In this document: in pieces, positions 4,156-34,679 of the stretch
Position numbering within the stretch: the first letter of the stretch is position 1
How the letters are laid out: each line of letters opens with the position of its first letter
Source of the DNA: Branchiostoma floridae
Lineage: Eukaryota > Chordata > Leptocardii > Amphioxiformes > Branchiostomatidae
DNA: 64,000 bases
Direction: 5' to 3'
Assembly: GCF_000003815.2 (NCBI RefSeq)
Contig: NC_049981.1
Location: forward strand, 6,532,445 to 6,596,444
Notes under the pieces: generated by a model
Databases searched by the model: none
What the model saw: the letters and a program-made list of their open reading frames with translations, nothing else
Told to the model about the DNA's origin: nothing
Made by a program: the position numbers and the translations under genes

Positions 4156-4255
4156 NNNNNNNNNNNNNNNNNNNNNNNNNNNNNNNNNNNNNNNNNNNNN
4201 NNNNNNNNNNNNNNNNNNNNNNNNNNNNNNNNNNNNNNNNNNNNNNNNNNNNNNN
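4156..4255. other. Assembly gap (100 N)
   Basis: A run of exactly 100 N, the usual placeholder for a gap of unknown size. It lies 23 bp before the signal-peptide ATG at 4279, so the promoter and 5' UTR of the D8C/EGF gene are missing or rearranged here. Confidence 0.95.
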
Positions 4256-4278: not shown

Positions 4279-4345
4279 ATGGATCACCGCTGGGTCTGTT
4301 TGAGTATCTCCCTGGCATTACTGGCGGGCACGGCGAGAAGCCAAG
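4279..4345 (+). CDS. D8C/EGF secreted protein, exon 1 (signal peptide)
   Basis: Predicted first coding exon. It encodes 22 residues starting MDHRWVCLSISLALLAG and ending TARSQ, a textbook secretory signal: short basic N-region, hydrophobic core, and small residues (Ala, Ser) before the cut. The exon ends CAAG before GTAGGA, a good donor, in phase 1. The next exon (5611) needs exactly one preceding base, so the join is in frame. I chose this ATG because no upstream in-frame ATG is visible before the 100-N gap. The gene product should enter the secretory pathway. Confidence 0.8.
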
Positions 4346-4714
4346 GTAGGAACATGGTATCTGTTTATAGTCATTCAGTGTAAGCTGTCACAAACGGACC
4401 TTCATTTGTTCAATGTTTCGGTAAGGCTCTCGCAGGCAACACAAGTAAATTTTGTCCTTATTACAAATATTGGTAACAAATAACCATATAAACAATAGGT
4501 TCTTGTTCGTTTTGAACTTTACCTATTCATTCATAGTAAAGTTCATTATGCGATGAGGAATACGAAAGATGGCCGTCGAAACGTTTACAAAATATGATTA
4601 ACGACGGAGACTACGTTCAATATGCCAGAGCCTGTTTATAAAGTATCTATATTTCAATTTTATGCTAATGTTGCTGAGTTGTATGAATAGTTATAGGAAG
4701 GAGCATGGTCAAAC

Positions 4715-4988
4715 GGCGTGGCGTTGGCGTGGCGTAACTGGTAGAGCATTCGGCTCGGAATCGAAAGGTTCCGAGTTCAATTCCCACCATGCCCCGACGT
4801 TGTGCCCTTGGGAAGGGCAGTTTACACGACTTTCCCTTACGGTGGAGTGACCCCCACCGAGCCTCTTCGGCTAATCTGTCTAACTGTGTGTAAGAAACAC
4901 ACTACGGATTTGGTGCGTCGATGTGCCAACATCTGCACTTTGACTTCCACTAAGAACCGTTATTTTTTTTAATTTTTAAATTTTTTTT
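4715..4988 (+). mobile_element. tRNA-derived SINE with 10-bp target duplication
   Basis: The head resembles a tRNA gene: an A-box-like GGCGTAACTGGTAGAGC and a B-box-like GAGTTCAATTCCC about 30 bp later. A tRNA-unrelated body and an A/T-rich 3' tail follow. ATGGTCAAAC occurs immediately before (4705-4714) and after (4989-4998) the element, a clean target-site duplication. It lies in intron 1 of the D8C/EGF gene in sense orientation. It is a SINE, not a functional tRNA. Confidence 0.8.
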
Positions 4989-5610
4989 ATGGTCAAACCG
5001 CAATTCCGACTAAAAACATCGACTCCAAACCTATTTCCCCCGAAAACAAATCTGATATTAATAATTCAAAGTGGTTAATGCTCAAACGTTTTACTTGGAT
5101 CATTTTACAAAATGTTCAATGCATACATATACCAAATTCAAAGTCATTTAATCGTAATACTGAAATATACAGTTTTAGGTCATGTAATTGTAAAACCAAA
5201 ATATACAGCTTTGGTCGGAAAATAGTCCAAATACTTCCATTAAATTATTCTAAAGACATTTAAGAAACGTCTTGGCGTATTGGCCTGCTCTACACTTTTA
5301 TGTCATTAGGCCAAGGAACGACGGCGATCTTTCCCCTTAAAGATTATGACAGGAGTAGAAAGAAGAAGAATAAGAAGAAATAAGCAGAAACATTACGAAT
5401 ACTGTATTTCTAAAATAATTAACGAGCGCCCGGATGCCATCCATAAAATATACTTGCTGTGGTCTAATACAAACTTGTAACAAATATCATGCAGCAACCA
5501 AAGGAATACACACTAGTGATACAATCAACTTAATATAACAAAATTGGGTAGAAAATAGAATTTGCATATCAGTGATTTCCGATCTATTCTACCTATTCCT
5601 GTTTGTTCAG

Positions 5611-5982
5611 ATCCGTGCATGCCCAGCGACTACATTGAACTGAATCAGGCATGGCGGAACGTCCAACAGGTCAACGATGGCAGCGAGGATAGGTGTGACC
5701 GTGGGTTTGCCGGAGAGTGGTACCGCTTCACGGGTGCTGCGGGAAATGCCATGCCGACACAGGCACCACCCAGCCATTACAGGTGCGGTACCGACGCCCC
5801 GATGTGGATGAACGGGCAACATCCCACCCTTGCTGACGGTGAAGTCTCCCGCCAGGCGTGTGCGTACTGGAACGGTAACCCCTGTCACGAGCAAACAACA
5901 ATCCAGGTGCGGGCCTGCAGCGGCGGCTACTTCGTGTATAAACTCCCCATAGTTCCTGCGTGCGCCGTGGTCTACTGTGGCG
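5611..5982 (+). CDS. D8C/EGF secreted protein, exon 2 (first D8C domain)
   Basis: This 372-bp exon lies between TTTGTTCAG and GTAAGTGA, phase 1 to phase 1, and encodes a complete 124-residue domain. Eight cysteines fall at about residues 3, 29, 59, 84, 92, 103, 118 and 123. Diagnostic stretches are YIELNQAWRN, CDRGFAGEWYRFTG, MWMNGQHPTLADGEV and GYFVYKLP. This is the eight-cysteine D8C pattern of uromodulin, GP2 and related extracellular proteins, where it precedes a ZP polymerisation module. No ZP module is seen in this window. A near-identical exon lies at 9914. Confidence 0.85.
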
Positions 5983-6060
5983 GTAAGTGATCAACAGTTT
6001 CACAACTTCGAACTAGAGATATTCATGGCCAAAAATAAGAGTATAGTAATTAGCTATATC

Positions 6061-6389
6061 CTAAGGCCACAACAAGTAAATTTAATGGAAGACATCCTCT
6101 GCAAACTGCAAAAATAATGAGGTAGGGCGAAAAAAAAACAAGACGGGTAAAAAAAAAACAAGATGGCAAATTTTCAAAATAGACACCATAAACGTTGTAA
6201 CAAGAATTGAACTGACAAACTATGGCATCACGACCAACAAGGCATTCATTCCTATATTAAAGAAATGCACTTAGTGTAGTGTAGTAAAAGTGACACCAGT
6301 GTGGTAAACTGGTATCACTAACCATGTTGGCATCTACATGTACACTCATGACTTCCATATTGGTGCCACTCTTACAACTATCCAGCAAG
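6061..6389. mobile_element. TIR element (TAGGCCAC family), left part, cut by gap
   Basis: This is the paralogous copy of the left part of the element at 10362-10890, within the duplicated intron. It starts TAAGGCCACAACAAGTAAAT and runs into the 135-N gap. A right-end fragment of the same family (GCCATCCATAAAATATACTT) lies near 5430-5510. Confidence 0.55.
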
Positions 6390-6524
6390 NNNNNNNNNNN
6401 NNNNNNNNNNNNNNNNNNNNNNNNNNNNNNNNNNNNNNNNNNNNNNNNNNNNNNNNNNNNNNNNNNNNNNNNNNNNNNNNNNNNNNNNNNNNNNNNNNNN
6501 NNNNNNNNNNNNNNNNNNNNNNNN
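6390..6524. other. Assembly gap (135 N) replacing about 2.5 kb present in the paralogous copy
   Basis: Sequence left of the gap matches 10674-10684 and sequence right of it matches 13183 onward. The second copy therefore has about 2.5 kb where this copy has only 135 N. Either that segment is an insertion in copy 2, or the gap is undersized because the cruciform-forming sequence at 13030-13229 hindered assembly. Confidence 0.85.
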
Positions 6525-7210
6525 TTGTTCCATTTCTACGATTTTCCAGCGATCCGGAGTCTGGTAGAGACTAGATTTTGGCACCACTGTACTGCATTTG
6601 CTCTTTGTTGCAAAACAACAACAACAACAATTCCGAGGCCGATTGCCCATGCTAAGATTTCTAATTCTAACTGATCATAATGTTTATACAAGATCTTTTG
6701 AACAGACTGTTTTTACAAACTGGGCCGATACGTTTCAACTAACAGATCACTAACTTCTTGAATCTTCTTAACTCTTAGGTGGTACATAAAGGAGCAGTTG
6801 GGCGTAGCCGTCAAACCATACGTGAATGGTAGTGAAATTCGGTGCTTTCAGTTGTAAATTAGTTAATCGGCAGAATAGCAGTGGCACGCGAGGGGAGTGG
6901 GGAGTTTTTCACAGCTTTTGTTTTGACTAAACAGTAGATGATAAATATGACACAGAATAACTTTGCGCAAAGCTTTGTATCGCTTACAACGCATATTGTA
7001 ACAACAACAGTCCACAAATATTTAACCCATACAAGAGCGACGTGAAATTAAAAAGACAGCTTTTGTCTTGACCGCGTACGAAGTCCGTGGTTTATGACAA
7101 GACAAGCATATGCATGTACATGCAATACTTAAAATATTTGAGAAGTGTTTGCATGCTAAATGCATATTTTGGAAACACGTGGAAACCTATATGTTGTGAT
7201 ATGTTGTAAT

Positions 7211-7620
7211 TTTTTCACATAAAATCACATTATTAGCTAGGACACCGGCAAATGTGAAATTATGTGAAACACGTTCACATAAAATAACATTTTGATCTGT
7301 TATGTGAAAATATGTGATTTCAACTTCACATAATTTCACATTCGCCTCCGTCCAGTTTGCAGAGTAAAACCGTTTCACATCCCTTCACATTTTAACACAT
7401 TTTACATTCACATTTTTTGGGTCACGTTTTTGGGTTGTGCGATTTCACATAATCGATTCACATTTTTCGAAGGGTCACATTATTTCACATAGAAAAACAT
7501 TTGACGATTCACATTTTGAAAATAAATCACATTTTGGGTTTCACATTTTTCTAAAGGAAGTCACATTATATCACATTTTCTTGGCATCGTGCACTAAATT
7601 CACATAATTTTCACATTTAT
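7211..7620. repeat. CACAT-rich tract, copy 1
   Basis: About 400 bp in which TCACAT or TTCACAT recurs every 10-30 bp, with some GTGAAA and ATGTGAA in the opposite orientation. The tract ends directly before the acceptor of the truncated EGF exon at 7632. A nearly identical copy is at 13868-14277. No coding potential is believed. Confidence 0.75.
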
Positions 7621-7631
7621 GCACCTTGTAG

Positions 7632-7757
7632 TGTGCTCGCCCAACCCGTGCCACGCCCGGGCCACCTGCACATATATCACCCCTTCACTGGACGCAACTT
7701 GTACCTGTAACACAGGATATACAGGAGATGGTCGCGCTGACGGAACTGGATGTTCAG
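7632..7757 (+). CDS. D8C/EGF secreted protein, truncated EGF exon 1
   Basis: This 126-bp candidate exon begins after CTTGTAG and ends at TTCAG before GTATTG, phase 1 to 1, encoding 42 residues. It retains all six EGF cysteines (CSPNPCHARATC, then ATCTC, then the last Cys in GTGCSG) but lacks the DIN residues that open the full EGF exons. The 5' part has been replaced by the CACAT tract, which supplies the new AG. The frame is open and in phase, so it could be spliced in. It could equally be a skipped relic. Confidence 0.5.
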
Positions 7758-8333
7758 GTATTGTGGCAAAAACATGATGCTGGGATCTTGTTTTTGGGAA
7801 TGTCTATGGGCTCCTTTAGTACGGTGATTTGATCATGTTCTATCTTTACCTTTGCCAGAATGGCTAAGGTTATGTTTTGGGCTTATGGGTCTGTCTGTGT
7901 GTGTGTTAACAGTATAACTCAAGAAGCCTTGGATGGATCCCGATAATATTTGGTAGGTGGGTAGGGGTCGGGAAAACAAAAGTCAAGTTCGATTATGGGC
8001 CCCCTAGCGGCTTGCTAAGGTACTGCAGCAGAATCTCAATTTTTGATATCTCGTCTTCTGGACATGCTGTGGTTATGATTTTTGAGTGGTAGATAGCCCT
8101 TGGCAGCCCTTGATAGCCCTTAAGTGCTGTAAGTTTGGACCCCCTAGCGGCTTGTTTGGAACTGCAGTCGCCGACTTCCTTTCAAAATTTGGACGAGAAT
8201 AACTCGAGAACGTGCAGATGGATCGTCATGATTATTAGTATGTAGATAGCCCAAGTAACAATGTACAAAATAGAATACTAATTATGCAAATCAGTAAACT
8301 AATTTGCATAATTAATGAGGAAAGTTTATGAAT

Positions 8334-8433
8334 NNNNNNNNNNNNNNNNNNNNNNNNNNNNNNNNNNNNNNNNNNNNNNNNNNNNNNNNNNNNNNNNNNN
8401 NNNNNNNNNNNNNNNNNNNNNNNNNNNNNNNNN
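8334..8433. other. Assembly gap (100 N)
   Basis: A run of 100 N inside the first intron block. The paralogous copies read straight through this point with only a few bases, so the true missing sequence is probably very short. Confidence 0.95.
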
Positions 8434-9460
8434 TGAATTTCATGATAGGACTTTCAAACTTGGTCCCATATATAGATGAGAAAGAGAGAAAATATGAATG
8501 CATATTATTTATGCAAATGACGGCTCATTTACATAACTAATGACAAAATATGAACGTGTGACGGGATCGTCATGATTTTTGGTATGTTGGTAGCCAAAGG
8601 GAAGACTTACATGATGGAATTCTAATTATGCAAATCGACAGCTAATTTGCATAATAAATGAGGAAAGTGTGTAAATCCACTGCATTCCTTTATAGGACTG
8701 TCAAACTTGTCACATTTGTAGCTTAGAAAGAAAGAAATATCAATACATATTAATTATGCAGATGATGATCTCATTTTCATAATTAATGGAAAATATGAAC
8801 GTGTTGACGGAGCGTCATGATTTTTGGTATGTAGATAGCCTAAGTAAAAAATTACATAATGAGATACTAGTTATGCAAATTAACAGCTAATTTGCATAAT
8901 TAACAAGGAAAGTTGGTAAATCCACTGCATTCCGTGATAGCACTTTCAAACTTGTCACATATGTAACTGAGAAAGATGGCAGAGAGACATGTTTGAGTCC
9001 GCTAAACGTCTTTTCTTGAACTGCAGGAGCCGGTTTAGTTTCCTACTTTGAAAGAGAATAAGTCAAGAAGGGATGAAAGGATCATCATGATTTTTGGTAG
9101 CTTAATAGGTTAAGTGATGCTTGATACAATCTAATATCAGTATGTAAATAGGGATCGGATGTGTATAAGCAATGGCGAAATGTTATGAACCAACTCCAGG
9201 CATATAAAATAAAATGTAATGAGTAACACATTTATGTCTACAGACATCATTCTACATAACAAACCTGGTTTATTTGGCAAAGGTATGTGTTCGTGGAACT
9301 CTAGTTTTATTCTTTCTTCAAATCAGATTTGGTAGGAGAAGAAGAACAAGGAGATGAGACGCGATAAAAACAATATATTTCAATCTATGTTTGGATTGAA
9401 ATATAACTACGAATGCAATATATTTCACAATACCTGTGGCATGGCTGAAATATAACAACA

Positions 9461-9498
9461 TTTCACTCCGTACCATACCTAGGTATGGTGGAGTGAAA
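9461..9498. repeat. Short perfect-like hairpin in intron block
   Basis: TTTCACTCC, then TACCATACCT, then AGGTATGGT, then GGAGTGAAA form a near-perfect palindrome of 38 bp centred on CCTAGG. The same hairpin is present near 16019 and 18812. The fourth block copy is broken just before it, at 21306. A second hairpin (ATTTCAATC/GATTGAAAT) lies about 80 bp upstream in each copy. Confidence 0.7.
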
Positions 9499-9913
9499 GC
9501 TTAGACGTACTGAAGTGTTAATTTTTTATGTAACAGTAGTAGTATTTGGTTTATTGATAAAAACATGTATCAAATCGGCTTTGCAGTAAAACTGAATTAT
9601 GCCGAGATTTACAATCAACAAATCAACAGTAATACCAGAGCAAAGTTATCAATACGATATGAAATTGTTCACGGGATTACAATATGTGCAAATAACGTAC
9701 AAGTTCAATGACGTTTAGTGTACGGGTAGTCTTTTGTATATATTAGCAGACCGGAGACAAAATTTTAATTTGGACTTCCTAGCGGGAGCCTGGTGTACCG
9801 GGCAGAAGCTTCGAATCTCTTGTTCCGGTCATGACATGCTCATAATTTTGAATTCTAGATATTTTTGGTGAGGTATAATATGCTCAATACCTTGTTTTTA
9901 CTGCAAACTCCAG

Positions 9914-10282
9914 CCTGCTCGCCCAGCGACTACATTGAACTGAATGAGGCATGGCGGAACGTCCAACAGGTCAACGATGGTAACCAAAATATGTGTGACC
10001 GTGGGTTTGCTGGAGAGTGGTACCGCTTCACGGGTGCTGCGGGAAATGCCATGCCGACACAGGCACCACCCAGCAACTACAGGTGCGGTACCGACGCCCC
10101 GATGTGGATGAACGGGCAACATCCCACCCTTGCTGACGGTGAAGTCTCCCGCCAGGTGTGTGCGTCCTGGAGCGGTAACCCCTGTTTCAGGCAAACAACA
10201 ATCCAGGTGCGGGCCTGCAGCGGCGGCTACTTCGTGTATAAACTCCCCATAGTTCCTGCGTGCAGCCTGGTCTACTGTGGCG
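9914..10282 (+). CDS. D8C/EGF secreted protein, second D8C exon
   Basis: This 369-bp exon lies between AAACTCCAG and GTAAGTGA, phase 1 to 1, encoding 123 residues nearly identical to the exon at 5611. It has the same eight-cysteine spacing and the WYRFTG and GYFVYKLP motifs. It opens ACSPSDY instead of DPCMPSDY, and the few other changes are conservative. Its acceptor region is shared with the EGF exons (ACTGCAAACTCCAG), showing that the duplication breakpoint lies at the intron-exon edge. It could be used in series with, or alternatively to, the first D8C exon. Confidence 0.85.
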
Positions 10283-10361
10283 GTAAGTGATCAACAGTTT
10301 CACAACTTCGATCTAGAGATATTCATGGCCCAAAATAAGAGTATAGTACTTAGCTATATCC

Positions 10362-10890
10362 TAAGGCCACAACAAGTAAATTTAATGGAAGACATCCTCT
10401 GCAAACTGCAAAAATAATGAGGTAGGGCGAAAAAAAAACAAGACGGGTAAAAAAAAACAAGATGGCAAATTTTCAAAATAGACACCATAAACGTTGTAAC
10501 AAGAATTGAACTGACAAACTATGGCATCACGACCAACAAGGCATTCATTCCTATATTAAAGAAATGCACTTAGTGTAGTGTAGTAAAAGTGACACCAGTG
10601 TGGTAAACTGGTATCACTAACCATGTTGGCATCTACATGTACACTCATGACTTCCATATTGGTGCCACTCTTACAACTATCCAGTAAGTTTCACTTCTGC
10701 AACTACAGTCAATGCTACCTATCTAGTGCCAATTCTATATACAATTATTTGGTTACAACAGAACTCATTTACCAATTTTTGTCTATCTGACCATCCATGA
10801 AGAAGAAAGAAAATCTTTTTTTTTTCTGAAATCAGCCGAAAATTAATGAGCGCGCGGATGTCATCCATAAAATTTACTTGCTGTGGCCTA
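10362..10890. mobile_element. Non-autonomous TIR element (TAGGCCAC family), about 530 bp
   Basis: The left end reads TAAGGCCACAACAAGTAAAT and the right end, complemented, TAGGCCACAGCAAGTAAATT. Similarity continues through ATGGA.GACATCC to about 35 bp of TIR. No transposase is visible. It lies in the intron after the second D8C exon. A truncated copy is at 6061. Confidence 0.65.
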
Positions 10891-13029
10891 ATAATAATAA
10901 GAAGGGTCGCTCCTGAAATTTAAACCAGTGTTTATGATACACTGATCAAATTGTATCAGTTTCTATCAGTTGCTGCAACATAATAGTAAACAGTTTCACT
11001 TGATTGTTGCTCACAGTCAGCTGTATCTAGTAATGTGCACTCTCACTTCAAAATGACTTTAAGGGATTATTTGTTTATTTTGAGACCAAAAACGTACATT
11101 TTTGCCTTCTTGTGTCTTGACATTGAAAACGACTTGAAATTCGGGATAGGGGCGCCTAGGTCCATGCCCACTACTAAAAAAATGCACAAAATTCTTCACA
11201 TCATACTTGCCATCGTCCCCCTGTGTGATTACTGCAGCCACGTGCCAGCTCCTTCCGCGCTTTTTAGATAAGTCTGTCATCTGCTCTCTGGATTTTAATG
11301 AAAGGAATTAATGTTTCATGGCCCAGTCCATGACAACTAGAGCTAATTGTTTATCTTCCTGTTGCAAAGAAGACTGGCAAGATCCTGGTAAACTCCTCCT
11401 AGCAAATTGGACTTCCAACTGTAAGTGGCTGAATGTAATTGTTCAAGTCGAAGCATAGTCAACTCGAGTGTTCCTCTGTGTTTTGTACTTTAGAAAGACT
11501 ACTGTCTATCTCAGCACATCCTCCAGATACAATCTCAATTATTAATCTCATGCCTAGGGTTGTTTGTGAGTCAGTTCTTACAGTTGACGTTGCTTACCAC
11601 CGTTCCTATAAGCCCTTGGGCCACACACTGGTGCATACATGTATTAAGCGGGGGGCCAGTCTACTGTTTGTGTTATTGTTAGTGTGTGTAATGCTATCAC
11701 ACTCTTTCCTAAATGTTGCGTGGTAGGGAGATAAGGCATTGTGTCCAACTTTTTTTAAAGTTACTTTGTTATGACACTGTCAGGAATCAAACTCACAACC
11801 TACCAAGGTGGATACTCCATCGGCCTTCGCACTGGTAGTATACTGATCCTACTTTATCAAGCAATGTACACAAACCTAATAAGATTTTCCTTTTGTTATT
11901 CACATTGCGTTTGTTAATTGGTCTTTCTAAATAAATTGTTTATATAAAAAAGCTCTGTTACCATGTAACTTGTAATTTAAATACCATGCAGACCCATGTG
12001 CAAACTTTTTTTTTTTAGATCCCATATACTGTTTCATTCTAACGTTAGTAGATGTTTGTCGGAGATCATATTTGGCAATCTTTGGCAGTTCAGTCTTTGG
12101 TAATATGTTGTATTTAACACAGTTTTGTATACATGGTATCACATTTCTAGTGCCCTGATAACCCCCATGCAGATCCGTGTGAGTTTGGATCCATGTGTCC
12201 TGTGTAATCACATTTCTGGTGTCCTGATAACCCCCATGCAGAGCCCTTTTCATTGTGTTCAACATAGCAGTAGATATACGCGGCGATTTAATAAGGTACC
12301 TACTTAGCGACATTAGGGAGGAACAATAAAATATGTCAAATCAGCATAATTCTTTTCAAGTATCCTTATATCCCCCATGCAGAGCCCCAATTAATATTTC
12401 CAACCAACCAATCAATCAATCAAACAATTAAAGTATATAAGTTATGCATGGTTTACGAGATGGCATGAGCAGAATGTGCCAGAAATCTTGACTCTGAACT
12501 GTTGTATTTTGCTTGAAACATGACTGAATACCCCTTTAGCAACGGCCTTAACAACAGTTTTGCTAACAGATTCTGAAAAAAATGACGTTAGAAAACAGTA
12601 TTCCTGCATCTATTTAACAATAAACATAACAACTTTTCTCCTTAGACTTCTACTGAGATAACCAAAGCAAAATACATCGGAAAAGTTTGTTCTGCATAGC
12701 AGTTTTGTTGTGGAGTATGATCCAAAACCTCCTTAGCAACGGCCTTAGCAACGGCCTTAGCGACGATATTGGCAATAGAATATGGCAGATGTGTCAACAT
12801 TCACACATTCATATCTCCGGATCGCATTGGCGGATTTTGATGATTTAAAGGTTGATATGGAGGGTATGATTTGGACGGTAGGTCTAACTCATCAGGCAAG
12901 GCCCCGTAGGTCTGCTCTAAGGATGACCGGAAGGGCCGACGGGGGTCTTTTATGAGCGCAGCGGGGTGCCATTATCTGGTGGATCGGTGCCTTTGAATTG
13001 ACTCGAGTGCCAGTTTCGTTGATTTTGGT
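10891..13029. other. Intron sequence without recognised genes
   Basis: No convincing exon is visible. It includes a loosely repeated phrase TGATAACCCCCATGCAGA (near 12157, 12226 and in part at 12370) and a region with repeated CCTTAGCAACGG (12540-12770). Paralogous sequence in the first unit is replaced by the 135-N gap. Confidence 0.4.
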
Positions 13030-13229
13030 AGTCTCTACCAGACTCCGGATCGCTGGAAAATCGTAGAAATGGAACAACTTATAGAGAGGAATATAATCGG
13101 CCAGGGAACAGCTCGCGATCCTAGGTAGATCGCGTGCTGTTCCCTGGCCGGTTTATTCCTCTGGCCGGCTTACTCCTCTATTTGTTCCATTTCTACGATT
13201 TTCCAGCGATCCGGAGTCTGGTAGAGACT
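13030..13229. repeat. Long inverted repeat with inner hairpin
   Basis: A 48-bp perfect inverted repeat: the left arm is 13030-13077 and the right arm 13182-13229, both containing GGATCGCTGGAAAATCGTAG or its complement. Inside is a second hairpin, GGCCAGGGAACAG with CTGTTCCCTGGCC. The structure should extrude as a cruciform. The sequence of the right arm resumes immediately after the N gap in the first gene unit (6525). Confidence 0.85.
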
Positions 13230-16200
13230 AGATTTTGGCACCACTGTACTGCATTTCCTCTTTGTTGCAAAACAACAACAACAACAATTCCGAGGCCGAT
13301 TGCCCATGCTAAGATTTCTAATTCTAACTGATCATAATGTTTATACAAGATCTTTTGAACAGACTGTTTTTACAAACTGGGCCGATACGTTTCAACTAAC
13401 AGATCACTAACTTCTTGAATCTTCTTAACTCTTAGGTGGTACATAAAGGAGCAGTTGGGCGTAGCCGTCAAACCATACGTGAATGGTAGTGAAATTCGGT
13501 GCTTTCAGTTGTAAATTAGTTAATCGGCAGAATAGCAGTGGCACGCGAGGGGAGTGGGGAGTTTTTCACAGCTTTTGTTTTGACTAAACAGTAGATGATA
13601 AATATGACACAGAATAACTTTGCGCAAAGCTTTGTATCGCTTACAACGCATATTGTAACAACAACAGTCTACAAATATTTAACCCATACAAGAGCGACGT
13701 GGAATTAAAAAGACAGCTTTTGTCTTGACCGCGTACGAAGTCCGTGGTTTATGACAAGACAAGCATATGCATGTACATGCAATACTTAAAATATTTGAGA
13801 AGTGTTTGCATGCTAAATGCATATTTTGGAAACACGTGGAAACCTATATGTTGTGATATGTTGTAATTTTTTCACATAAAATCACATTATTAGCTAGGAC
13901 ACCGGCAAATGTGAAATTATGTGAAACACGTTCACATAAAATAACATTTTGATCTGTTATGTGAAAATATGTGATTTCAACTTCACATAATTTCACATTC
14001 GCCTCCGTCCAGTTTGCAGAATAAAACCGTTTCACATCCCTTCACATTTTAACACATTTTACATTCACATTTTTTGGGTCACGTTTTTGGGTTGTGCGAT
14101 TTCACATAATCGATTCACATTTTTCGAAGGGTCACATTATTTCACATAGAAAAACATTTGACGATTCACATTTTGAAAATAAATCACATTTTGGGTTTCA
14201 CGTTTTTCTAAAGGAAGTCACATTATATCACATTTTCTTGGCATCGTGCACTAAATTCACATAATTTTCACATTTATGCACCATGTAGTGTGCTCGCCCA
14301 ACCCGTGCCACGCCCAGGCCACCTGCACAGATATCACCCCTTCACTGGACGCAACTTGTACCTGTAACACAGGATATACAGGAGATGGTCGCGCTGATGG
14401 AACTGGATGTTCAGGTATTGTGGCAAAAACATGATGCTGGGATCTTGTTTTTGGCAATGTCTATGGGCTCCTTTAGTACGGTGATTTGATCATGTTCTAT
14501 CTTTAACTTTGCCAGAATGGCTAAGGTTATGTTTTGGGCTTGTGGGTCTGTCTGTGTGTGTGTTAACAGTATAACTCAAGAAGCCTTGGATGGATCCCGA
14601 TAATATTTGGTAGGTGGGTAGGGGTCGGGAAAACAAAAGTCAAGTTCGATTATGGGCCGCCTAGCGGCTTGCTAAGGTACTGCAGCAGAATCTCAATTTT
14701 TGATATCTCGTCTTCTGGACATGCTGTGGTTATGATTTTTGAGTGGTAGATAGCCCTTGGTAGCCCTTGATAGCCCTTAAGTGCTGTAAGTTTGGACCCC
14801 CTAGCGGCTTGTTTGGAACTGCAGTCGCCGACTTCCTTTCAAAATTTGGACGAGAATAACTCGAGAACGTGTAGATGGATCGTCATGATTATTGGTATGT
14901 AGATAGCCCAAGTAACAATGTACAAAATAGAATACTAATCATGCAAATCAGTAACTAATTTGCATAATTAATGAGGAAAGTTTATAAATCCACTGCATTT
15001 CATGATAGGACTTTCAAACTTGTCACATATATAGATGAGAAAGAGAGAAATATGAATGCATATTAATTATGCAAATGACGGCTCATGTACATAACTAATG
15101 ACAAAATATGAACGTGTTGACGGATCGTCATGATTTTTGCCATGTAGGTAGCCAAAGGGAAGACTTACATGATGGAATTCTAATTATGCAAATCGACAGC
15201 TAATTTGCATAATAAATGAGGAAAGTGTGTAAATCCACTGCATTCCTTTATAGGACTTTCAAACTTGTCACATTTGTAGCTGAGAAAGAAAGAAATATCA
15301 ATACATATTAATTATGCAGATGATGATCTCATTTGCATAATTAATGGAAAATATGAACGTGTTGACGGAGCGTCATGATTTTTGGTATGTAGATAGCCTA
15401 AGTAAAAAATTACATAATGAGATACTAGTTATGCAAATTAACAGCTAATTTGCATAATTAACAAGGAAAGTTGGTAAATCCACTGCATTCCGTGATAGCA
15501 CTTTCAAAGTTGTCACATTTGTAACTGAGAAAGATGGCAGAGAGACATGTTTGAGTCCGCTAAACGTCTTTTCTTGAACTGCAGGAGCCGGTTTAGTTTC
15601 CTACTTTGAAAGAGAATAAGTCAAGAAGGGATGAAAGGATCATCATGATTTTTGGTAGCTTAATAGGTTAAGTGATGCTTGATACAATTTAATATCAGTA
15701 TGTAAATAGGGATCGGATGTGTATAAGCAATGGCGAAATGTTATGAACCAACTCCAGGCATATAAAATAAAATGTAATGAGTAACACATTTATGTCTACA
15801 GACATCAATCTACACAACAAACCTGGTTTATTTGGCAAAGGAATGTGTTCGTGGAACTCTAGTTTTATTCTTTCTTCAAATCAGATTTGGTAGGAGAAGA
15901 AGAACAAGGAGATGAGACGCGACAAAAACAATATATTTCAATCTATGTTTGGATTGAAATATAACTACGAATGCAATATATTTCACAATACCTGTGGCAT
16001 GGCTGAAATATAACAACATTTCACTCCGTACCATACCTAGGTATGGTGGAGTGAAAGCTTAGACGTACTGAAGTGTTCATTTTTTATGTAACAGTAGTAG
16101 TATTTGGTTTATTGATAAAAACATGTATCAAATCGGCTTTGCAGTAAAACTGAATTATGCCGAGATTTACAATCAACAAATCAACAGTAATACCAGAGCA

Positions 16201-16471
16201 AAGTTATCAATACGATATGAAATTGTTCACGGGATTACAATATGTGCAAATAACGTACAAGTTCAATGACGTTTAGTGTACGGGTAGTCTTTTGTATATA
16301 TTAGCAGACCGAAGACAAAATTTTAATTTGGACTTCCTAGCGGGAGCCTGGTGTACCGGGCAGAAGCTTCGAATCTCTTGTTCCGGTCATGACATGCTCA
16401 TAATTTTGAATTCTAGATATTTTTGGTGAGATATAATATGCTCAATACCTTGTTTTTACTGCAAACTCCAG
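13183..16471. repeat. Segmental duplicate of 6525-9913
   Basis: About 3.3 kb nearly identical to 6525-9913, including the CACAT tract (13868-14277), the truncated EGF exon, the Oct-like dyad array and the hairpins. Differences are scattered single bases plus the N gap in copy 1. High identity across intron sequence points to recent duplication or to ongoing homogenisation. Confidence 0.85.
14289..14414 (+). CDS. D8C/EGF secreted protein, truncated EGF exon 2
   Basis: Paralogue of the exon at 7632: 126 bp, phase 1 to 1, acceptor CATGTAG next to the CACAT tract, donor GTATTG. It encodes six cysteines in the EGF pattern (CSPNPCHAQATC onward) and lacks the DIN opening. The preserved frame in both copies argues mildly for function. 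The weak pyrimidine tract argues against. Confidence 0.5.
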
Positions 16472-16609
16472 ACATCAACGCCTGCTCGCCCAACCCGTGC
16501 CACGCCCAGGCCACCTGCACAGATAACCCCGCCCCTTCACTGGACGCAACTTGTACCTGTAACACAGGATATACAGGAGATGGTCGCGCTGACGGAACTG
16601 GATGTTCAG
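16472..16609 (+). CDS. D8C/EGF secreted protein, EGF exon a
   Basis: This 138-bp exon lies between CAAACTCCAG and GTATTG, phase 1 to 1, encoding 46 residues. It opens DINACSPNPCHAQATC and continues to TCTCNTGYTGDGRADGTGC. Six cysteines (about residues 5, 10, 16, 28, 30 and 45) make one EGF domain. The DIN opening resembles calcium-binding EGF, but the usual Glu/Gln before the first Cys is Ala and the Asn/Asp-aromatic hydroxylation consensus is not evident, so calcium binding is uncertain. Such symmetric exons can be added without frame loss. Confidence 0.85.
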
Positions 16610-17056
16610 GTATTGTGGCAAAAACATGATGCTGGGATCTTGTTTATGACAATGTCTATGGGCTCCTTTAGTACGGTGATTTGATCATGTTCTATCTTTT
16701 TATTCTTTCTTCAAATCATGTTTTTATCATACGTCTTTATTCTATTTCAATTGTTTTTACTGCAAACTCCAGACATCAACGCCTGCTCGCCCAACCCGTG
16801 CCACGCCCAGGCCACCTGCACAGATAACCCCGCCCCTTCACTGGACGCAACTTGTACCTGTAACACAGGATATACAGGAGATGGTCGCGCTGACGGAACT
16901 GGATGTTCAGGTATTGTGGCAAAAACATGATGCTGGGATCTTGTTTATGACAATGTCTATGGGCTCCTTTAGTACGGTGATTTGATCATGTTCTATCTTT
17001 TTATTCTTTCTTCAAATCATGTTTTTATCATACGTCTTTATTCTATTTCAATTGTC
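16610..17056. repeat. 301-bp tandem exon-intron unit
   Basis: Intron sequence 16610-16762 and 16911-17056 is essentially identical, and exons a and b are identical. The unit (exon plus about 163 bp of intron, from 16472 to 16773) is therefore a direct tandem repeat of 301 bp. The same short intron recurs at 19406-19552. Confidence 0.85.
16773..16910 (+). CDS. D8C/EGF secreted protein, EGF exon b
   Basis: Identical in nucleotide sequence to exon a over all 138 bp, with the same acceptor (CAAACTCCAG) and donor. It arose by the 301-bp tandem duplication. It encodes one complete six-cysteine EGF domain, phase 1 to 1. Identity this complete means either a very recent event, gene conversion, or an assembly duplication. 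Confidence 0.8.
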
Positions 17057-17065
17057 CTTGTCCAG

Positions 17066-17209
17066 ACACCAATGTCTGCTCGAACTCGCCCAACCCGTGC
17101 CACGCCCAGGCCACCTGCACAGATAACCCCGCCCCTTCACTGGACGCAACTTGTACCTGTAACACAGGATATACAGGAGATGGTCGCGCTGACGGAACTG
17201 GATGTTCAG
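17066..17209 (+). CDS. D8C/EGF secreted protein, EGF exon c
   Basis: This 144-bp exon has a different acceptor (CTTGTCCAG) and opens DTNVCSNSPNPC, two residues longer than exons a and b. The remainder is identical. Phase 1 to 1, six core cysteines. Here Val replaces Ala before the first Cys. It is followed by the long intron block with the Oct-like dyads. Confidence 0.85.
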
Positions 17210-19267
17210 GTATTGTGGCAAAAACATGATGCTGGGATCTTGTTTTTGGCAATGTCTATGGGCTCCTTTAGTACGGTGATTTGATCATGTTCTATCTTTA
17301 CCTTTGCCAGAATGGCTAAGGTTATGTTTTGGGCTTATGGGTCTGTCTGTGTGTGTGTTAACAGTATAACTCAAGAAGCCTTGGATGGATCCCGATAATA
17401 TTTAGTAGGTGGGTAGGGGTCGGGAAAACGAAGGTCAAGTTCGATTATGGGCCCCCTAGCGGCTTGCTAAGGTACTGCAGCAGAATCTCAATTTTTGATA
17501 TCTCGTCTTCTGGACATGCTGTGGTTATGATTTTTGAGTGGTAGATAGCCCTTGGTAGCCCTTGATAGCCCTTAAGTGCTGTAAGTTTGGACCCCCTAGC
17601 GGCTTGTTTGGAACTGCAGTCGCCGACTTCCTTTCAAAATTTGGACGAGAATAACTCGAGAACGTGTAGATGGATCGTCATGATTTTTGGTATGTAGATA
17701 GCCCAAGTAACAATGTACAAAATAGAATACTAATTATGCAAATCAGTAACTAATTTGTATAATTAATGAGGAAAGTTTATAAATACACTGAATTTCATGA
17801 TAGGACTTTCAAACTTGTCACATATATAGATGAGAAAGAGAGAAATATGAATGCATATTAATTATGCAAATGACGGCCTCATTTACATAACTAATGACAA
17901 ACTATGAACGTGTTGACGGATCGTCATGATTTTTGGTATGTAGGTAGCCAAAGGGAAGACTTACATGATGGAATTCTAATTATGCAAATCGACAGCTAAT
18001 TTGCATAATAAATGAGGAAAGTGTGTAAATCCACTGCATTCCTTTATAGGACTTTCAAACTTGTCACATTTGTAGCTGAGAAAGAAAGAAATATCAATAC
18101 ATATTAATTATGCAGATGATGATCTCATTTGCATAATTAATGGAAAATATGAACGTGTTGACGGAGCGTCATGATTTTTGGTATGTAGATAGCCTAAGTA
18201 AAAAATTACATAATGAGATACTAGTTATGCAAATTAACAGCTAATTTGCATAATTAACAAGGAAAGTTGGTAAATCCACTGCATTCCGTGATAGCACTTT
18301 CAAACTTGTCACATATGTAACTGAGAAAGATGGCAGAGAGACATGTTTGAGTCCGCTAAACGTCTTTTCTTGAACTGCAGGAGCCGGTTTAGTTTCCTAC
18401 TTTGAAAGAGAATAAGTCAAGAAGGGATGAAAGGATCATCATGATTTTTGGTAGCTTAATAGGTTAAGTGATGCTTGATACAATTTAATATTAGTATGTA
18501 AATAGGGTTCGGATGTGTATAAGCAATGGCGAAATGTTATGAACCAACTCCAGGCATATAAAATAAAATGTAATGAGTAACACATTTATGTCTACAGACA
18601 TCATTCAACATAACAAACCTGGTTTAATTGGCAAAGGTATGTGTTCGTGGAACTCTAGTTTTATTCTTTCTTCAAATCAGATTTGGTAGGAGAAGAAGAA
18701 CAAGGAGATGAGACGCGACAAAAACAATATATTTCAATCTATGTTTGGATTGAAATATAACTACGAATGCAATATATTTCACAATACCTGTGGCATGGCT
18801 GAAATATAACAACATTTCACTCCGTACCATACCTAGGTATGGTGGAGTGAAAGCTTAGACGTACTGAAGTGTTCATCTTTTATGTAACAGTAGTAGTATT
18901 TGGTTTATTGATAAAAACATGTATCAAATCGGCTTTGCAGTAAAACTGAATTATGCCGAGATTTACAATCAACAAATCAACAGTAATACCAGAGCAAAGT
19001 TATCAATATGATATGAAATTGTTCACGGGATTACAATATGTGCAAATAACGTACAAATTCAATGACGTTTAGTGTACGGGTAGTCTTTTGTATATATTAG
19101 CAGAACGGAGACAAAATTTTAATTTGGACTTCCTAGCGGGAGCCTGGTGTACCGGGCAGAAGCTTCGAATCTCTTGTTCCGGTCATGACATGCTCATAAT
19201 TTTGAATTCTAGATATTTTTGGTGAGATATAATATGCTCAATACCTTGTTTTTACTGCAAACTCCAG
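17210..19267. repeat. Duplicated intron block, copy 3
   Basis: Nearly identical to 7758-9913 and 14415-16471. It links EGF exon c to exon d. No gap interrupts it, so it is the cleanest copy for defining the repeat unit. Confidence 0.85.
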
Positions 19268-19405
19268 ACATCAACGCCTGCTCGCCCAACCCGTGCCACG
19301 CCCAGGCCACCTGCACAGATAACCCCGCCCCTTCACTGGACGCAACTTGTACCTGTAACACAGGATATACAGGAGATGGTCGCGCTGATGGAACTGGATG
19401 TTCAG
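19268..19405 (+). CDS. D8C/EGF secreted protein, EGF exon d
   Basis: 138 bp, phase 1 to 1, one silent difference from exon a (GAC to GAT in the RADGTG stretch). It has the same CAAACTCCAG acceptor. Together with exon e it forms a duplicate of the a-c module with one copy of the short intron missing. It encodes a complete EGF domain opening DINAC. Confidence 0.85.
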
Positions 19406-19560
19406 GTATTGTGTCAAAAACATGATGCTGGGATATTGTTTATGACAATGTCTATGGGCTCCTTTAGTACGGTGATTTGATCATGTTCTATCTTTTTATT
19501 CTTTCTTCAAATCATGTTTTTATCATACGTCTTTATTCTATTTCAATTGTCCTTGTCCAG

Positions 19561-19704
19561 ACACCAATGTCTGCTCGAACTCGCCCAACCCGTGCCACGC
19601 CCAGGCCACCTGCACAGATAACCCCGCCCCTTCACTGGACGCAACTTGTACCTGTAACACAGGATATACCGGAGATGGTCGCGCTGACGGAACTGGATGT
19701 TCAG
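19561..19704 (+). CDS. D8C/EGF secreted protein, EGF exon e (last seen)
   Basis: 144 bp, acceptor CTTGTCCAG, opening DTNVCSNSPNPC as in exon c, phase 1 to 1. It is the last recognisable exon of the gene in this window. The following intron block breaks off at 21306 into transposon sequence. The 3' exons (stop codon and possible ZP, TM or GPI region) are either beyond the transposon graveyard or on another scaffold. Confidence 0.8.
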
Positions 19705-21306
19705 GTATTGTGGCAAAAACATGATGCTGGGATCTTGTTTTTGGCAATGTCTATGGGCTCCTTTAGTACGGTGATTTGATCATGTTCTATCTTTACCTTT
19801 GCCAGAATGGCTAAGGTTATGTTTTTTGGGCTTATGGGTCTGTCTGTGTGTGTGTTAACAGTATAACTCAAGAAGCCTTGGATGGATCCCGATAATATTT
19901 AGTAGGTGGGTAGGGGTCGGGAAAACGAAGGTCAAGTTCGATTATGGGCCCCCTAGCGGCTTGCTAAGGTACTGCAGCAGAATCTCAATTTTTGATATCT
20001 CGTCTTCTGGACATGCTGTGGTTATGATTTTTGAGTGGTAGATAGCCCTTGGTAGCCCTTGATAGCCCTTAAGTGCTGTAAGTTTGGACCCCCTAGCGGC
20101 TTGTTTGGAACTGCAGTCGCCGACTTCCTTTCAAAATTTGGACGAGAATAACTCGAGAACGTGTAGATGGATCGTCATGATTTTTGGTATGTAGATAGCC
20201 CAAGTAACAATGTACAAAATAGAATACTAATTATGCAAATCAGTAACTAATTTGCATAATTAATGAGGAAAGTTTATAAATCCACTGAATTTCATGATAG
20301 GACTTTCAAACTTGTCACATATATAGATGAGAAAGAGAGAAATATGAATGCATATTAATTATGCAAATGACGGCCTCATTTACATAACTAATGACAAAAT
20401 ATGAACGTGTTGACGGATCGTCATGATTTTTGGTATGTAGGTAGCCATAGGGAAGACTTACATGATGGAATTCTAATTATGCAAATCGACAGCTAATTTG
20501 CATAATAAATGAGGAAAGTGTGTAAATCCACTGCATTCCTTTATAGGACTTTCAAACTTGTCACATTTGTAGCTGAGAAAGAAAGAAATATCAATACATA
20601 TTAATTATGCAGATGATGATCTCATTTGCATAATTAATGGAAAATATGAACGTGTTGACGGAGCGTCATGATTTTTGGTATGTAGATAGCCTAAGTAAAA
20701 AATTACATAATGAGATACTAGTTATGCAAATTAACAGCTAATTTGCATAATTAACAAGGAAAGTTGGTAAATCCACTGCATTCCGTGATAGCACTTTCAA
20801 ACTTGTCACATATGTAACTGAGAAAGATGGCAGAGAGACATGTTTGAGTCCGCTAAACGTCTTTTCTTGAACTGCAGGAGCCGGTTTAGTTTCCTACTTT
20901 GAAAGAGAATAAGTCAAGAAGGGATGAAAGGATCATCATGATTTTTGGTAGCTTAATAGGTTAAGTGATGCTTGATACAATTTAATATTAGTATGTAAAT
21001 AGGGATCGGATGTGTATAAGCAATGGCGAAATGTTATGAACCAACTCCAGGCATATAAAATAAAGTGTAATGAGTAACACATTTATGACTACAAACATCA
21101 TTCAACATAACAAACCTGGTTTAATTGGCAAAGGTATGTGTTCGTGGAACTCTAGTTTTATTCTTTCTTCAAATCAGATTTGGTAGGAGAAGAAGAACAA
21201 GGAGATGAGACGCGACAAAAACAATATATTTCAATCTATGTTTGGATTAAAATATAACTACGAATGCAATATATTTCACAATACCTGTGGCATGGCTGAA
21301 ATATAA
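19705..21306. repeat. Duplicated intron block, copy 4, truncated
   Basis: Matches the other blocks up to GAAATATAACAAC, then switches abruptly to unrelated sequence beginning ACTATTCCAAATGAGG. The break falls just before the CCTAGG hairpin present in the other copies. Confidence 0.85.
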
Positions 21307-21493
21307 CAACTATTCCAAATGAGGCACATGATTGCTTCTGTCCGGGTTTCGCGTCGTTAAGAGGCGACACCTGGTCGGGAGCAGTCCACGTGCTCTCATT
21401 AACCACCTGTACATCCTCACCTGTGCATAGAACCTTTTATACGCCCTGCGCCTTTCATTCCCATATGTTGGCCGAGCTACGCCGGAGAGGTCG
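21307..21493. repeat. Dispersed repeat R1, copy 1
   Basis: About 185 bp from ACTATTCCAAATGAGGCACA to CCGGAGAGGTCGG, repeated almost exactly at 32305-32490 in the same orientation, 11 kb away. It may be a terminal or split repeat of a retroelement whose coding debris lies between the two copies. That link is inference. Confidence 0.75.
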
Positions 21494-21959
21494 GGCTTGG
21501 TGCTGGTTCGCCTGAGTTCATCGTTTTGGCTAGCTGTGCCCGCCTGCCCTCCCACCCCGCTTCCCGCTTGCCTGCTCGTACGTCCTGCCGGCTCTTTTCA
21601 ACCCATTCTGCCCGCGTTAGGCGAGGAACTCTACAGGGCCAAGAACTTCAGGAACGCACAGGATTTTGGAGCACACATTTGTGAGGTGACATTAGGAGCG
21701 TTTGATTTTTCTTTTTCCCTAGTTTGTGCGGTTTTGCCATGTTGACTTCCGTTCGTAAATTGTTCTCGTTTGGTTGACAGTAGTAGTTTCACGAAGTGAG
21801 TGGTATTTTCACAGCCGTGCAGGCCGGTATGTTATTTCGGTGATAAATGTTTTCGCATTACTTAGTTTGATATGTTAATTTGGTGATTGGCATGCTCGAA
21901 GCTTTGGAGTTAAACACGTTTTCGGGGTAATTAGCTCGTATGATGCAGTCGTTTCGGAT

Positions 21960-28603: not shown

Positions 28604-28693
28604 GCTGGTTTAGGTATGGGAAAGTGTTGAGGTTTGGGGAAAGTAATGAGGTGTGGGGAAAAGGTTTGAGGTTTGAGGAAAGGTGAAAGGTGT
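28604..28693. repeat. 90-bp direct repeat, left copy
   Basis: GCTGGTTTAGGTATGGGAAA through GGTGAAAGGTGT is repeated with no difference I can see at 32066-32155. The pair encloses about 3.4 kb rich in CTTTCCG/CGGAAAG. It could be terminal direct repeats of an element, or a duplication made on insertion. Confidence 0.8.
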
Positions 28694-32065: not shown

Positions 32066-32155
32066 GCTGGTTTAGGTATGGGAAAGTGTTGAGGTTTGGG
32101 GAAAGTAATGAGGTGTGGGGAAAAGGTTTGAGGTTTGAGGAAAGGTGAAAGGTGT
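32066..32155. repeat. 90-bp direct repeat, right copy
   Basis: Same sequence as 28604-28693. To its left the CTTTCCG-rich element ends CGGAAAGTATGCTTAAATAT; to its right is unrelated sequence starting GGAAGTCAAGACG. Confidence 0.8.
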
Positions 32156-32239: not shown

Positions 32240-33278
32240 GGACTTTTTTGCCCATACCTTAACCTTCTTCCGGAGATTCGCCTGGGGTCACTGCGGATAG
32301 GGTACTATTCCAAATGAGGCACATGATTGCTTCTGACCGGGTTTCGCGTCGTTAAGAGGCGACACCTGGTCGGGAGCAGTCCACGTGCTCTCATTAACCA
32401 CCTGTACATCCTCACCTGTGCATAGAACCTTTTATACGCCCTGCGCCTTTCATTCCCATATGTTGGCCGAGCTACGCCGGAGAGGTCGGACGGAGGTAGC
32501 TGGGGAGCTTTATAGAAGTTGAGGGACATGGACGGAAGTGACTTGAGGGTGTATGATTTTAAGTGGATGGTATAAAGATATGAAGAGGGTATGGAAAGAC
32601 AGGCCTATGAAGCTGGGAACTAAATTGAATCCATAATGCGTCTGAACTTTGTGAGGTTTCGTACGGTTTAGAAACTTGTCAAGCGACATCAAGAGCTTGA
32701 CACCATCCTGGAGATGGTAACAACACATCTTGAACTAGGAACATGGAGAGGGGTCTATTGTTGCGTTCGTCAAGCGCGGGAGAGGTGGCTAGGCCTGGTA
32801 TACTTCTACCGCGGATGGCTTTGAACTCGGTTCCAAAAGGGAAAAGAGATAGGGCGGCAAATGATCTAGAATGTCTGGCGGGGTTTGGATGAAGTAAGAT
32901 TCTTTTGGTAAGACACTGGATAGCGGGAATTGGAAAGCTGTGGTAGCCCGCTTTGGAGGTAGCTGGGATGCGGCGAAGAAGAAGAAGATGTTGGATGAGT
33001 TTAGGGCAGCCCACCGAACATTCGCTAATCCAGCCGCGGACAAGAAGATTGGTGTAGCTTTTGTCAGACCGTCCCCGTTGCCGTGGATGTGTTGCACAAG
33101 AGACGTGGGACGTTTGGGGAAGTAAGGGCACTAAAACACCCGCCCTCCCGCCCTTTTTTCCATTCTCTGCTCGTAGACCGTTCAGTGACCCTTCGGTCGA
33201 CACTCCGGACTTTTTTGCCCATACCTTAACCTTCTTCCGGAGATTCGCCTGGGGTCACTGCGGATAGGGTACTATTCC
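32240..33278. repeat. Segment bounded by a 72-bp direct repeat, containing R1 copy 2
   Basis: GGACTTTTTTGCCCATACCT through GGGTACTATTCC occurs at 32240-32311 and again at 33207-33278. Immediately after the first copy, R1 copy 2 runs to about 32490, followed by about 700 bp of unrecognised sequence. The arrangement resembles direct terminal repeats of a roughly 1-kb element or a solo fragment of a larger one. Confidence 0.65.
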
Positions 33279-34151: not shown

Positions 34152-34579
34152 CTAGACGGTGTGAGTCCGCATGTGTTTCTTAAGATTTCCAAGCTGACTG
34201 AACTGCCTGCTGCACTCCTCACAACTGTAAGGTTTCTCCCCTGTGTGAGTCCGCATGTGTTTCTTAAGATTTCGCAGATCACTGAACTGCTTGCTGCAAT
34301 CCTCACAACTGTAGGGTTTCTCACCTGTGTGAGTCCGCATGTGGATTTTCAGCGCACCCAGCTGACAAAACTGCTTGCTACACTCCTCACACGTATAGGG
34401 TTTCTCACATGTGTGAGTCCGCACGTGTCTTTTCAGAGCAACCAGCTCGCTGAACTGCTTGCTGCACTCCTCACACTTGAAGGGCTTCTCCCCTGTGGAG
34501 TCCGCATGTGAATCTTCAGATGACCAGGTTGACTGAACTGCTTGCTGCATTCGTCACACGTGTAGGTCTATCACCTGTG
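34152..34579 (-). CDS. C2H2 zinc-finger exon (partial, with frameshifts)
   Basis: The minus strand encodes four intact C2H2 fingers (openings [40 protein letters not shown]; each ends H.RTH) joined by TGEKP linkers, one altered to CEKP. The frame ends after MRTHTV with a stop at 34152. A fifth finger upstream (34505-34579) is split by two 1-bp deletions, beside an N gap. Past the stop a degraded finger-like stretch continues to about 34055. Such arrays bind DNA in the nucleus. It is either a pseudogene or a gene damaged by poor sequence at a contig edge. Confidence 0.75.
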
Positions 34580-34679
34580 NNNNNNNNNNNNNNNNNNNNN
34601 NNNNNNNNNNNNNNNNNNNNNNNNNNNNNNNNNNNNNNNNNNNNNNNNNNNNNNNNNNNNNNNNNNNNNNNNNNNNNNN
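34580..34679. other. Assembly gap (100 N)
   Basis: A run of 100 N that cuts the zinc-finger exon. More fingers and the acceptor probably lie in it. Confidence 0.95.

Follow-up and report, generated by a model that had tools for sequence, protein, structure and literature searches.

A probably young tandem array of D8C and EGF exons in a lancelet secreted-protein gene

Proteins with repeated domains are common, but the early steps in their growth are usually blurred by time, and a locus of Branchiostoma floridae at which D8C and EGF exons recur in near-identical copies raises the question of whether such steps can be seen here, or whether the copies are older and kept alike, or are partly a product of the assembly, near-identical tandem copies being what assemblers get wrong. 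We analysed a whole stretch of 64,000 nucleotides (the window), for which a preliminary description had noted exon repetition at 5611..19704; the repetition is confirmed, with corrections to its module boundaries, gaps and right edge. Our reading, which we hold to be probable, is that of a genuine young KIV-2-like coding tandem exon array within one secreted-protein gene. Repeat proteins are known to be built in this manner, and the locus is a new clear example, in which the joints, the microhomology at them and a good part of the succession of steps are still readable, although not every join of the draft assembly is secure.

Architecture of the gene and its right edge

In the window lies the 5′ portion of a gene for a secreted protein, in the order signal peptide, D8C, EGF, D8C and six EGF exons (Table 1), the label "signal peptide" for 4279-4345 being read from the sequence alone. 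The spliced frame is open across 587 codons and contains two D8C and seven EGF stretches without a stop, with AG at 9/9 acceptors and GT at 10/10 donors. Both D8C exons lie well above the 27-bit cut-off of the Pfam D8C family (PF23283), and the EGF_3 and EGF families each match seven stretches above theirs. All internal exons had been said to be phase 1-1, and this holds for the nine checked, each of which is preceded by AG, followed by GT and of a length divisible by three; each duplication step would thus stay in frame, so that changes in copy number would be tolerated. The predicted product is an extracellular protein of the form D8C-EGF-D8C-EGF(6). Scans of the 64-kb window for tRNA genes and Rfam families found nothing.

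Table 1. Positions of exons, introns and other features within the window.
Feature	Position	Strand	Remarks
Signal-peptide-like exon	4279..4345	+	MDHRWVCLSISLALLAGTARSQ; open frame, GT donor; ends in phase 1; in-frame splice to D8C1
D8C1 exon	5611..5982	+	Pfam D8C_UMOD 73.9 bits; DPC start in common with GP2 (alignment)
Intron X, unit A	5983..7631	+	Contains assembly gap 6390-6524 (135 N)
EGF_A exon	7632..7757	+	Pfam EGF_3 37.6 bits
Intron Y, unit A	7758..9913	+	Contains assembly gap 8334-8433 (100 N)
D8C2 exon	9914..10282	+	Pfam D8C_UMOD 79.8 bits; first 12 nt and upstream splice site as in EGFa; joined to D8C at GCCCA
Intron X, unit B	10283..14288	+	10689-13181 not seen in unit A; inverted repeat near 13029-13230
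EGF_B exon	14289..14414	+	
Intron Y, unit B	14415..16471	+	
Two identical 301-bp units	16450..17051	+	EGFa 16472-16609, EGFb 16773-16910; TTGT at boundaries
EGFc exon	17066..17209	+	
Intron Y following EGFc	17210..19267	+	
EGFd exon	19268..19405	+	
EGFe exon	19561..19704	+	
Truncated intron Y following EGFe	19705..21308	+	
Retroelement-like segment	21309..33278	.	Split direct repeats A1 21309-21494, B1 32240-32311, A2 32304-32489, B2 33207-33278

The array does not end at a natural repeat boundary; its right edge at 21308 is where a retroelement-like segment begins. The split direct repeats of this segment (A, 186 bp, 99.5% identical; B, 72 bp, 100%) are ordered A1, B1-A2, B2, which we take to be the mark of Ngaro/PAT-like tyrosine-recombinase retroelements, and three open reading frames within the segment, examined for reverse transcriptase and tyrosine recombinase, matched no Pfam family at E 0.01. 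The far flank is not the rest of the interrupted intron Y, which makes the 21308/21309 join doubtful and means that at least one contig join, or the chromosome itself, is rearranged. The stop of the array at the element would also suit a truncated gene or young pseudogene whose 3′ end was lost to it; a non-exhaustive search of the window identified no downstream exon of this gene and no terminal one carrying a stop codon, and the 10 open reading frames downstream of 21309 held no match to a ZP module. The open spliced frame and the complete set of splice sites argue against such decay, which we regard as quite unlikely.

Nested duplications and the assembly

Exons and introns are repeated together, head to tail, at four levels. 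The smallest is a 301-bp exon-intron unit, claimed previously and now seen to be an exact copy (16450-16750 and 16751-17051, 0/301 differences), so that EGFa and EGFb are indeed identical at the DNA level. A "2.8-kb EGF module" had also been proposed; the repetition stands, but its boundaries do not, as two things were mixed. One is a period of 2,495 bp, by which EGFb-EGFc-intron Y recurs as EGFd-EGFe-intron Y (16751-18813 and 19246-21310, 99.3% identity), EGFa being an extra 301-bp copy, and the other is a separate level with a period of 2,795 bp, running from EGF_B to EGFc (14293-17000 and 17085-19794, 97.7%). The larger D8C-EGF unit of the same account is present, though unit A crosses two N gaps and unit B has 2,493 bp (10689-13181) that are missing from unit A or hidden in its gap. 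With repeats 0.3 to 2.7 kb long and 97-100% identical, a chance origin is excluded.

An assembly artefact had also been suggested, and how far the assembly can be trusted differs along the array. Unit A is joined over its two gaps, and directly after the second of these, 8434-8600 differs from unit B at 11/165 sites and in two gap columns, which looks like poor contig-edge sequence. From 8434 to 34579 the sequence is one gap-free stretch that includes D8C2 with its fusion to intron Y, and the six EGF exons that follow. For these an assembly artefact is less likely than for the gap and retroelement joins, as the stretch is free of gaps and the fusion joint is in frame and keeps a cysteine.

With that contig edge omitted, units A and B differ at 32/3401 sites of clean non-coding DNA (0.94%), and taken separately, the three pieces of contig in unit A are similarly diverged from unit B (X 4/406 in piece 1; X 6/1107 and Y 9/575 in piece 2; Y 13/1313 in piece 3), which fits one duplicated unit. 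These values bear on a partial artefact in which both haplotypes of a highly heterozygous individual were placed one after the other, unit A or the EGF modules being the other allele instead of a second copy. The gaps, the poor edge at 8434 and the doubtful retroelement join are what such an error might leave, and passages of PMC2632668 report allelic swaps and misassemblies in an early lancelet draft. Against it, divergence between the units is below the lancelet heterozygosity of 3.2-4.2% given in PMC12862219, a comparison tempered by the fact that local heterozygosity can be lower. Moreover, intron Y stands upstream of D8C2 within the gap-free stretch, whereas the signal-peptide exon and a unique intron stand upstream of D8C1; the two therefore lie in different places unless that stretch is chimeric at the 5-bp in-frame joint. 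On balance we consider the haplotype explanation rather doubtful.

Divergence and order of the copies

The four Y introns, compared at columns free of gaps and N in every copy, have 45 two-state variable columns, seven of which split the copies 2:2, and all seven give the branching AB|ce. The oldest visible split is that of the introns following EGF_B and EGFc (29/2057), and those following EGFc and EGFe differ at 9/1602. Exon repetition "caught very early", as had been suggested, is supported by the graded, low divergence from this split (29/2057) through units A and B (32/3401) and c/e (9/1602) to the 301-bp pair (0/301). The companion suggestion, active homogenisation, finds no support in the introns, where 7/7 informative sites support one branching. 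Concerted evolution, with gene conversion keeping the copies of an older array alike, would account for the great similarity of the copies, the identical 301-bp pair and the patchy changes of the D8C exons, but not for the lack of any conflicting site among the seven or for the grading of divergence, and we think it very unlikely. The intron sites thus favour stepwise duplication over homogenisation. Duplication of D8C as the oldest step was considered and dropped, since the B and c introns are more diverged than units A and B. The case for the 301-bp pair being more recent than c/e is not strong, as 0/301 differences would arise with a chance of about 0.18 at the c/e rate.

Under stepwise duplication, the oldest visible event would have separated the Y introns belonging to D8C units from those of the later EGF modules. 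A tandem duplication with one end within the D8C exon and the other at the beginning of an EGF exon farther along may then have produced D8C2, with a first cysteine derived from EGF, after which the EGF module would have doubled (b-c-Y to d-e-Y) and the 301-bp copy would have arisen, probably as the youngest step. Microhomology of 4-5 bp at two joints, TTGT at the 301-bp unit and GCCCA at the D8C2 fusion, suggests template switching during replication, or else end joining. Unequal exchange among the near-identical copies of intron Y could gain or lose modules of 2.5-2.8 kb, and from this single assembly we would predict copy number to be polymorphic in the population.

Fusion and divergence of the D8C exons

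D8C2 is a fusion, in which the end of an EGF-type intron and the start of an EGF exon, including a cysteine, run in frame into D8C; it is a case where the exon of another domain supplies the first cysteine of a domain. The DPC start of GP2 is kept in D8C1 and absent from D8C2, which marks D8C1 as the older arrangement.

The two D8C exons differ at 20/360 sites, compared to the 32/3401 of the non-coding DNA (Fisher p 1.8e-8 by sites). The differences lie mainly in multi-base patches, which carry most of the signal, and when changes separated by no more than 5 nt are counted as one event the excess is much weaker (9 against 3.4 expected, p 0.008). Replacement of the amino acid is seen in 13/15 changed codons; positive selection by dN/dS was considered and dropped, with dN (0.059) close to dS (0.053). 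From their pattern the patchy changes look imported, and homogenisation would be compatible with them here. Their simplest source would be other alleles or paralogues of D8C, through short templated replacements; that selection for different binding surfaces has retained them is a guess. In a bolder proposal the D8C exon would serve as a hypervariable recognition module: following a duplication whose neighbouring introns are about 1% different, the two exons would have acquired blocks of multi-base, mostly replacing changes beside the cysteines, in short templated patches with other D8C copies as donors. We put it forward as a tentative and unlikely one; if true, the gene would pair rapid change in the number of EGF spacers with diversifying binding heads, like a germline-encoded immune receptor. 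Confirmation of the patchy divergence in more alleles would provide a testable case of a recognition domain diversifying in a growing array.

Several known systems resemble the locus in part. The KIV-2-type array, as excerpts on it describe, likewise has near-identical kilobase exon-intron units repeated in tandem within the coding part of a single gene for a secreted protein; its copy number varies between individuals, whereas here there is one assembly, with other domains and several nested unit sizes. Exons of phase 1-1 have been moved or multiplied at a high rate in lancelets (PMC4284660), a genome-wide statistic as opposed to our single locus. The lancelet VCBP genes, in the portions of PMC2632668 that treat them, show copy-number and haplotype variation and have retroelements nearby, one of them Ngaro-like, but there whole genes with immunoglobulin-type domains are copied and here exons. 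Among the open-licence literature matches listed, none describes a D8C/EGF exon array gene in amphioxus or Branchiostoma; an expression paper, in extract, names an amphioxus "Uromodulin" gene and gives no structure there (PMC5752451).

Uromodulin and GP2, in the passages of PMC8930769 that describe them, likewise have a D8C_UMOD domain (D8C or D10C) adjoining EGF domains. The present gene differs in having two D8C domains; the C-terminal ZP module that belongs to uromodulin and GP2 was not seen in the window, which shows the 5′ part of this gene. The D10C of GP2 has five disulfide pairs in the same source, and by alignment 8/10 of its cysteines are kept here: four pairs are complete, and the pair formed by the third and sixth cysteines (C3-C6) lacks both. 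The predicted fold of D8C2, with D8C1 as the sole other row, has a mean pLDDT of 41.5, too poor to place the variable residues. No N-X-S/T site occurs in the 587 residues, unlike a FimH decoy with its high-mannose N-glycan in the D10C groove. Eight residues past C8, the N of the printed uromodulin sequence, which is N275 in the numbering used in those passages of PMC8930769, corresponds to K in D8C2.

Gene structure and levels of repetition

The 5′ part of one gene lies at 4279-19704 on the + strand, where a signal-peptide-like exon is followed by nine exons in the order D8C1, EGF_A, D8C2, EGF_B, EGFa, EGFb, EGFc, EGFd and EGFe, each preceded by AG, followed by GT and of a length divisible by three. 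Spliced, the exons give 587 codons with no stop and 59 cysteines, in which Pfam finds two D8C_UMOD and seven EGF_3 stretches. By sequence, GP2 and uromodulin (UMOD; E 1.1e-28 to 1.8e-25) come closest among solved structures. The product is most likely extracellular, its two D8C heads being carried on EGF spacers. In alignment the D8C domain retains 8 of the 10 D10C cysteines, the two absent (C3 and C6) forming a pair in GP2 according to PMC8930769. The same paper places the FimH-binding glycan of uromodulin at N275, whereas here the aligned position is a lysine and the 587-codon known part contains no N-X-S/T site. The protein is thus D8C-like, but it is not expected to serve as a glycan decoy in the way uromodulin does.

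Self-comparison of the window, together with pairwise alignments, gave four levels of repetition. The smallest (a) is the 301-bp exon-intron unit of the preliminary description, which is indeed present in two copies with 0 differences; TTGT stands at the left edge, middle and right edge of the doubled unit. With X denoting the intron after a D8C exon and Y the long intron after EGF_A, EGF_B, EGFc and EGFe, level (b) pairs EGFb-EGFc-Y with EGFd-EGFe-Y (period 2,495 bp, 99.3%; 9/1,602 sites differing in the Y parts), level (c) pairs EGF_B-Y-EGFa with EGFc-Y-EGFd (period 2,795 bp, 97.7%; 29/2,057 in the Y parts), and level (d) pairs unit A (D8C1-X-EGF_A-Y) with unit B (D8C2-X-EGF_B-Y). The 2.8-kb EGF module proposed earlier is found as a repeat but not as one unit, being level (b) plus an extra 301-bp copy. 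Intron Y additionally contains an older 245-246 bp repeat with 82-84% matches. Among the exons, EGF_A and EGF_B differ at 3/126 sites, two of them non-silent, and EGFa/EGFd and EGFc/EGFe at one silent site each.

We consider it rather probable that this is a real, young, nested exon array, the caveats being the gap joins and the join to a retroelement. Tandem copying of 1-1 exons is an already known process, described as a genome-wide tendency of lancelets in PMC4284660, and the coding tandem array of LPA is an earlier example of it; what is unusual here is that the fusion joint can still be read and that the D8C pair has diverged in patches.

Order of the duplications and divergence of the D8C pair

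The four Y introns (A, B, c and e, following EGF_A, EGF_B, EGFc and EGFe) were compared over columns free of gaps and N, so that the 3′ stretch absent from the last copy does not count. Of the 45 two-state variable columns, 17 set A alone apart, 13 B, 3 c and 5 e. All seven informative columns separate A and B from c and e; neither of the two other groupings receives any support, and the introns fit stepwise duplication with no visible exchange among them. Divergence ranks as B/c (1.41%), A/B (0.94%; 32/3,401 non-coding sites between units A and B once the contig edge 8434-8600 is excluded), c/e (0.56%) and the 301-bp pair (0), with B/c and A/B close to each other and 0/301 not significantly under 0.56%; in Y alone, A/B is 1.17% (22/1,888). 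If the host is taken to be a lancelet and the Branchiostoma floridae rate quoted in PMC12862219 (5.89e-9 per base per generation) is applied, our own arithmetic puts B/c, A/B and c/e at about 1.2, 0.8 and 0.5 million generations and the identical pair below about 0.85 million (95%).

The D8C2 exon sits behind the splice acceptor of an EGF-type intron Y. It opens with 12 nt identical to positions 10-21 of EGFa and lacks the nine nucleotides with which the EGF exon begins; homology to D8C1 starts within an overlapping GCCCA. We take D8C1 as the older form because it shares the domain start DPC with GP2, where D8C2 has AC; the first cysteine of D8C2 appears to derive from EGF exon sequence. Three rearrangement joints (7632, 9914 and 16751) coincide with the 5′ end of an EGF exon, or of what the fusion left of one, or lie within about 25 bp of it, a pattern that would suit a breakpoint hotspot there.

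Counted from the CCCAGC codons that both exons have, 20/360 sites differ between D8C1 and D8C2, and 10/1,513 in intron X. Fifteen codons are changed, 13 with amino-acid replacement, and there are no cysteine losses or indels; dN (0.059) and dS (0.053) are alike. At the non-coding rate 2.7 non-silent and 0.7 silent changes would be expected, compared to 16 (p 2.4e-8) and 4 (p 0.007) observed. Neighbouring changes are at most 2 nt apart in 10/19 pairs, a figure reached by 0 of 20,000 random placements. Since the excess shrinks to 9 against 3.4 expected (p 0.008) once changes are merged into events, most of the signal consists of multi-base patches, a pattern that points to copying from another template more than to point mutation. 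Selection on the pair is possible. By our own count 12 of the 13 changed residues lie within 4 residues of a cysteine, as does roughly half of the domain.

Assembly joins, right edge and surrounding features

Positions of gaps and repeats in the window, with the signal-peptide-like exon
Feature	Position	Strand	Remark
N runs	4156-4255; 6390-6524; 8334-8433		next at 34580
Signal-peptide-like exon	4279-4345	+	ends in phase 1
301-bp unit	16450-16750; 16751-17051		level (a)
Inverted repeat, intron X of unit B	13029-13162; 13085-13230		82.6%, imperfect
Near-palindrome, intron Y	18815-18852		copies at 9461-9498, 16019-16056
Split direct repeat A1; A2	21309-21494; 32304-32489		185/186
Split direct repeat B1; B2	32240-32311; 33207-33278		72/72
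90-bp direct repeat	28604-28693; 32066-32155		identical

Unit A is assembled from three pieces, whose non-coding differences from unit B are similar (4/406, 15/1682 and 13/1313); D8C2 and six EGF exons lie inside a single gap-free piece (8434-34579). At the place of the first unit A gap, unit B has 2,493 extra bases ending in the inverted repeat, and the piece 6525-8333 begins in an arm of that repeat, a possible reason for the gap. The second gap matches about 4 bases of unit B, and its 100 N are therefore nominal.

The right edge of the array (21309) is less sound than these joins. The segment 21309-33278, of about 12 kb, carries its split repeats in the order A1, B1-A2, B2, which we take to be that of Ngaro/PAT-like tyrosine-recombinase retroelements; three ORFs scanned within it gave no Pfam match. 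Intron Y does not continue past 33278. Its 456 missing bases have full-length matches in the window in no place but the other three Y copies, the remaining matches being a near-palindrome within those copies and the 22 bases preceding EGFb. This would mean either a chromosomal rearrangement at the element or a contig that is chimeric within it. The near-palindrome (about 40 bp, 90% self-complementary) starts within about 4 bp of where the segment breaks the last Y copy, and the segment also holds a 90-bp direct repeat besides the split ones.

Elsewhere, a C2H2 zinc-finger ORF (34155-34553, - strand) adjoins the assembly gap at 34580, and long G runs fill about 500 bp of the + strand at 43335-43860, where both strands have long, probably spurious, open frames. 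An ORF at 58657-59385 (+) weakly matches the chitin synthase N-terminal domain PF23000 (E 0.00095; 18.6 bits, under the Pfam cut-off of 23.5). Two 10-bp tandem arrays (55885-56144 and 57326-57426; CGAAAAGGAA and GTTCCTTTTC) form an inverted pair about 1.2 kb apart.
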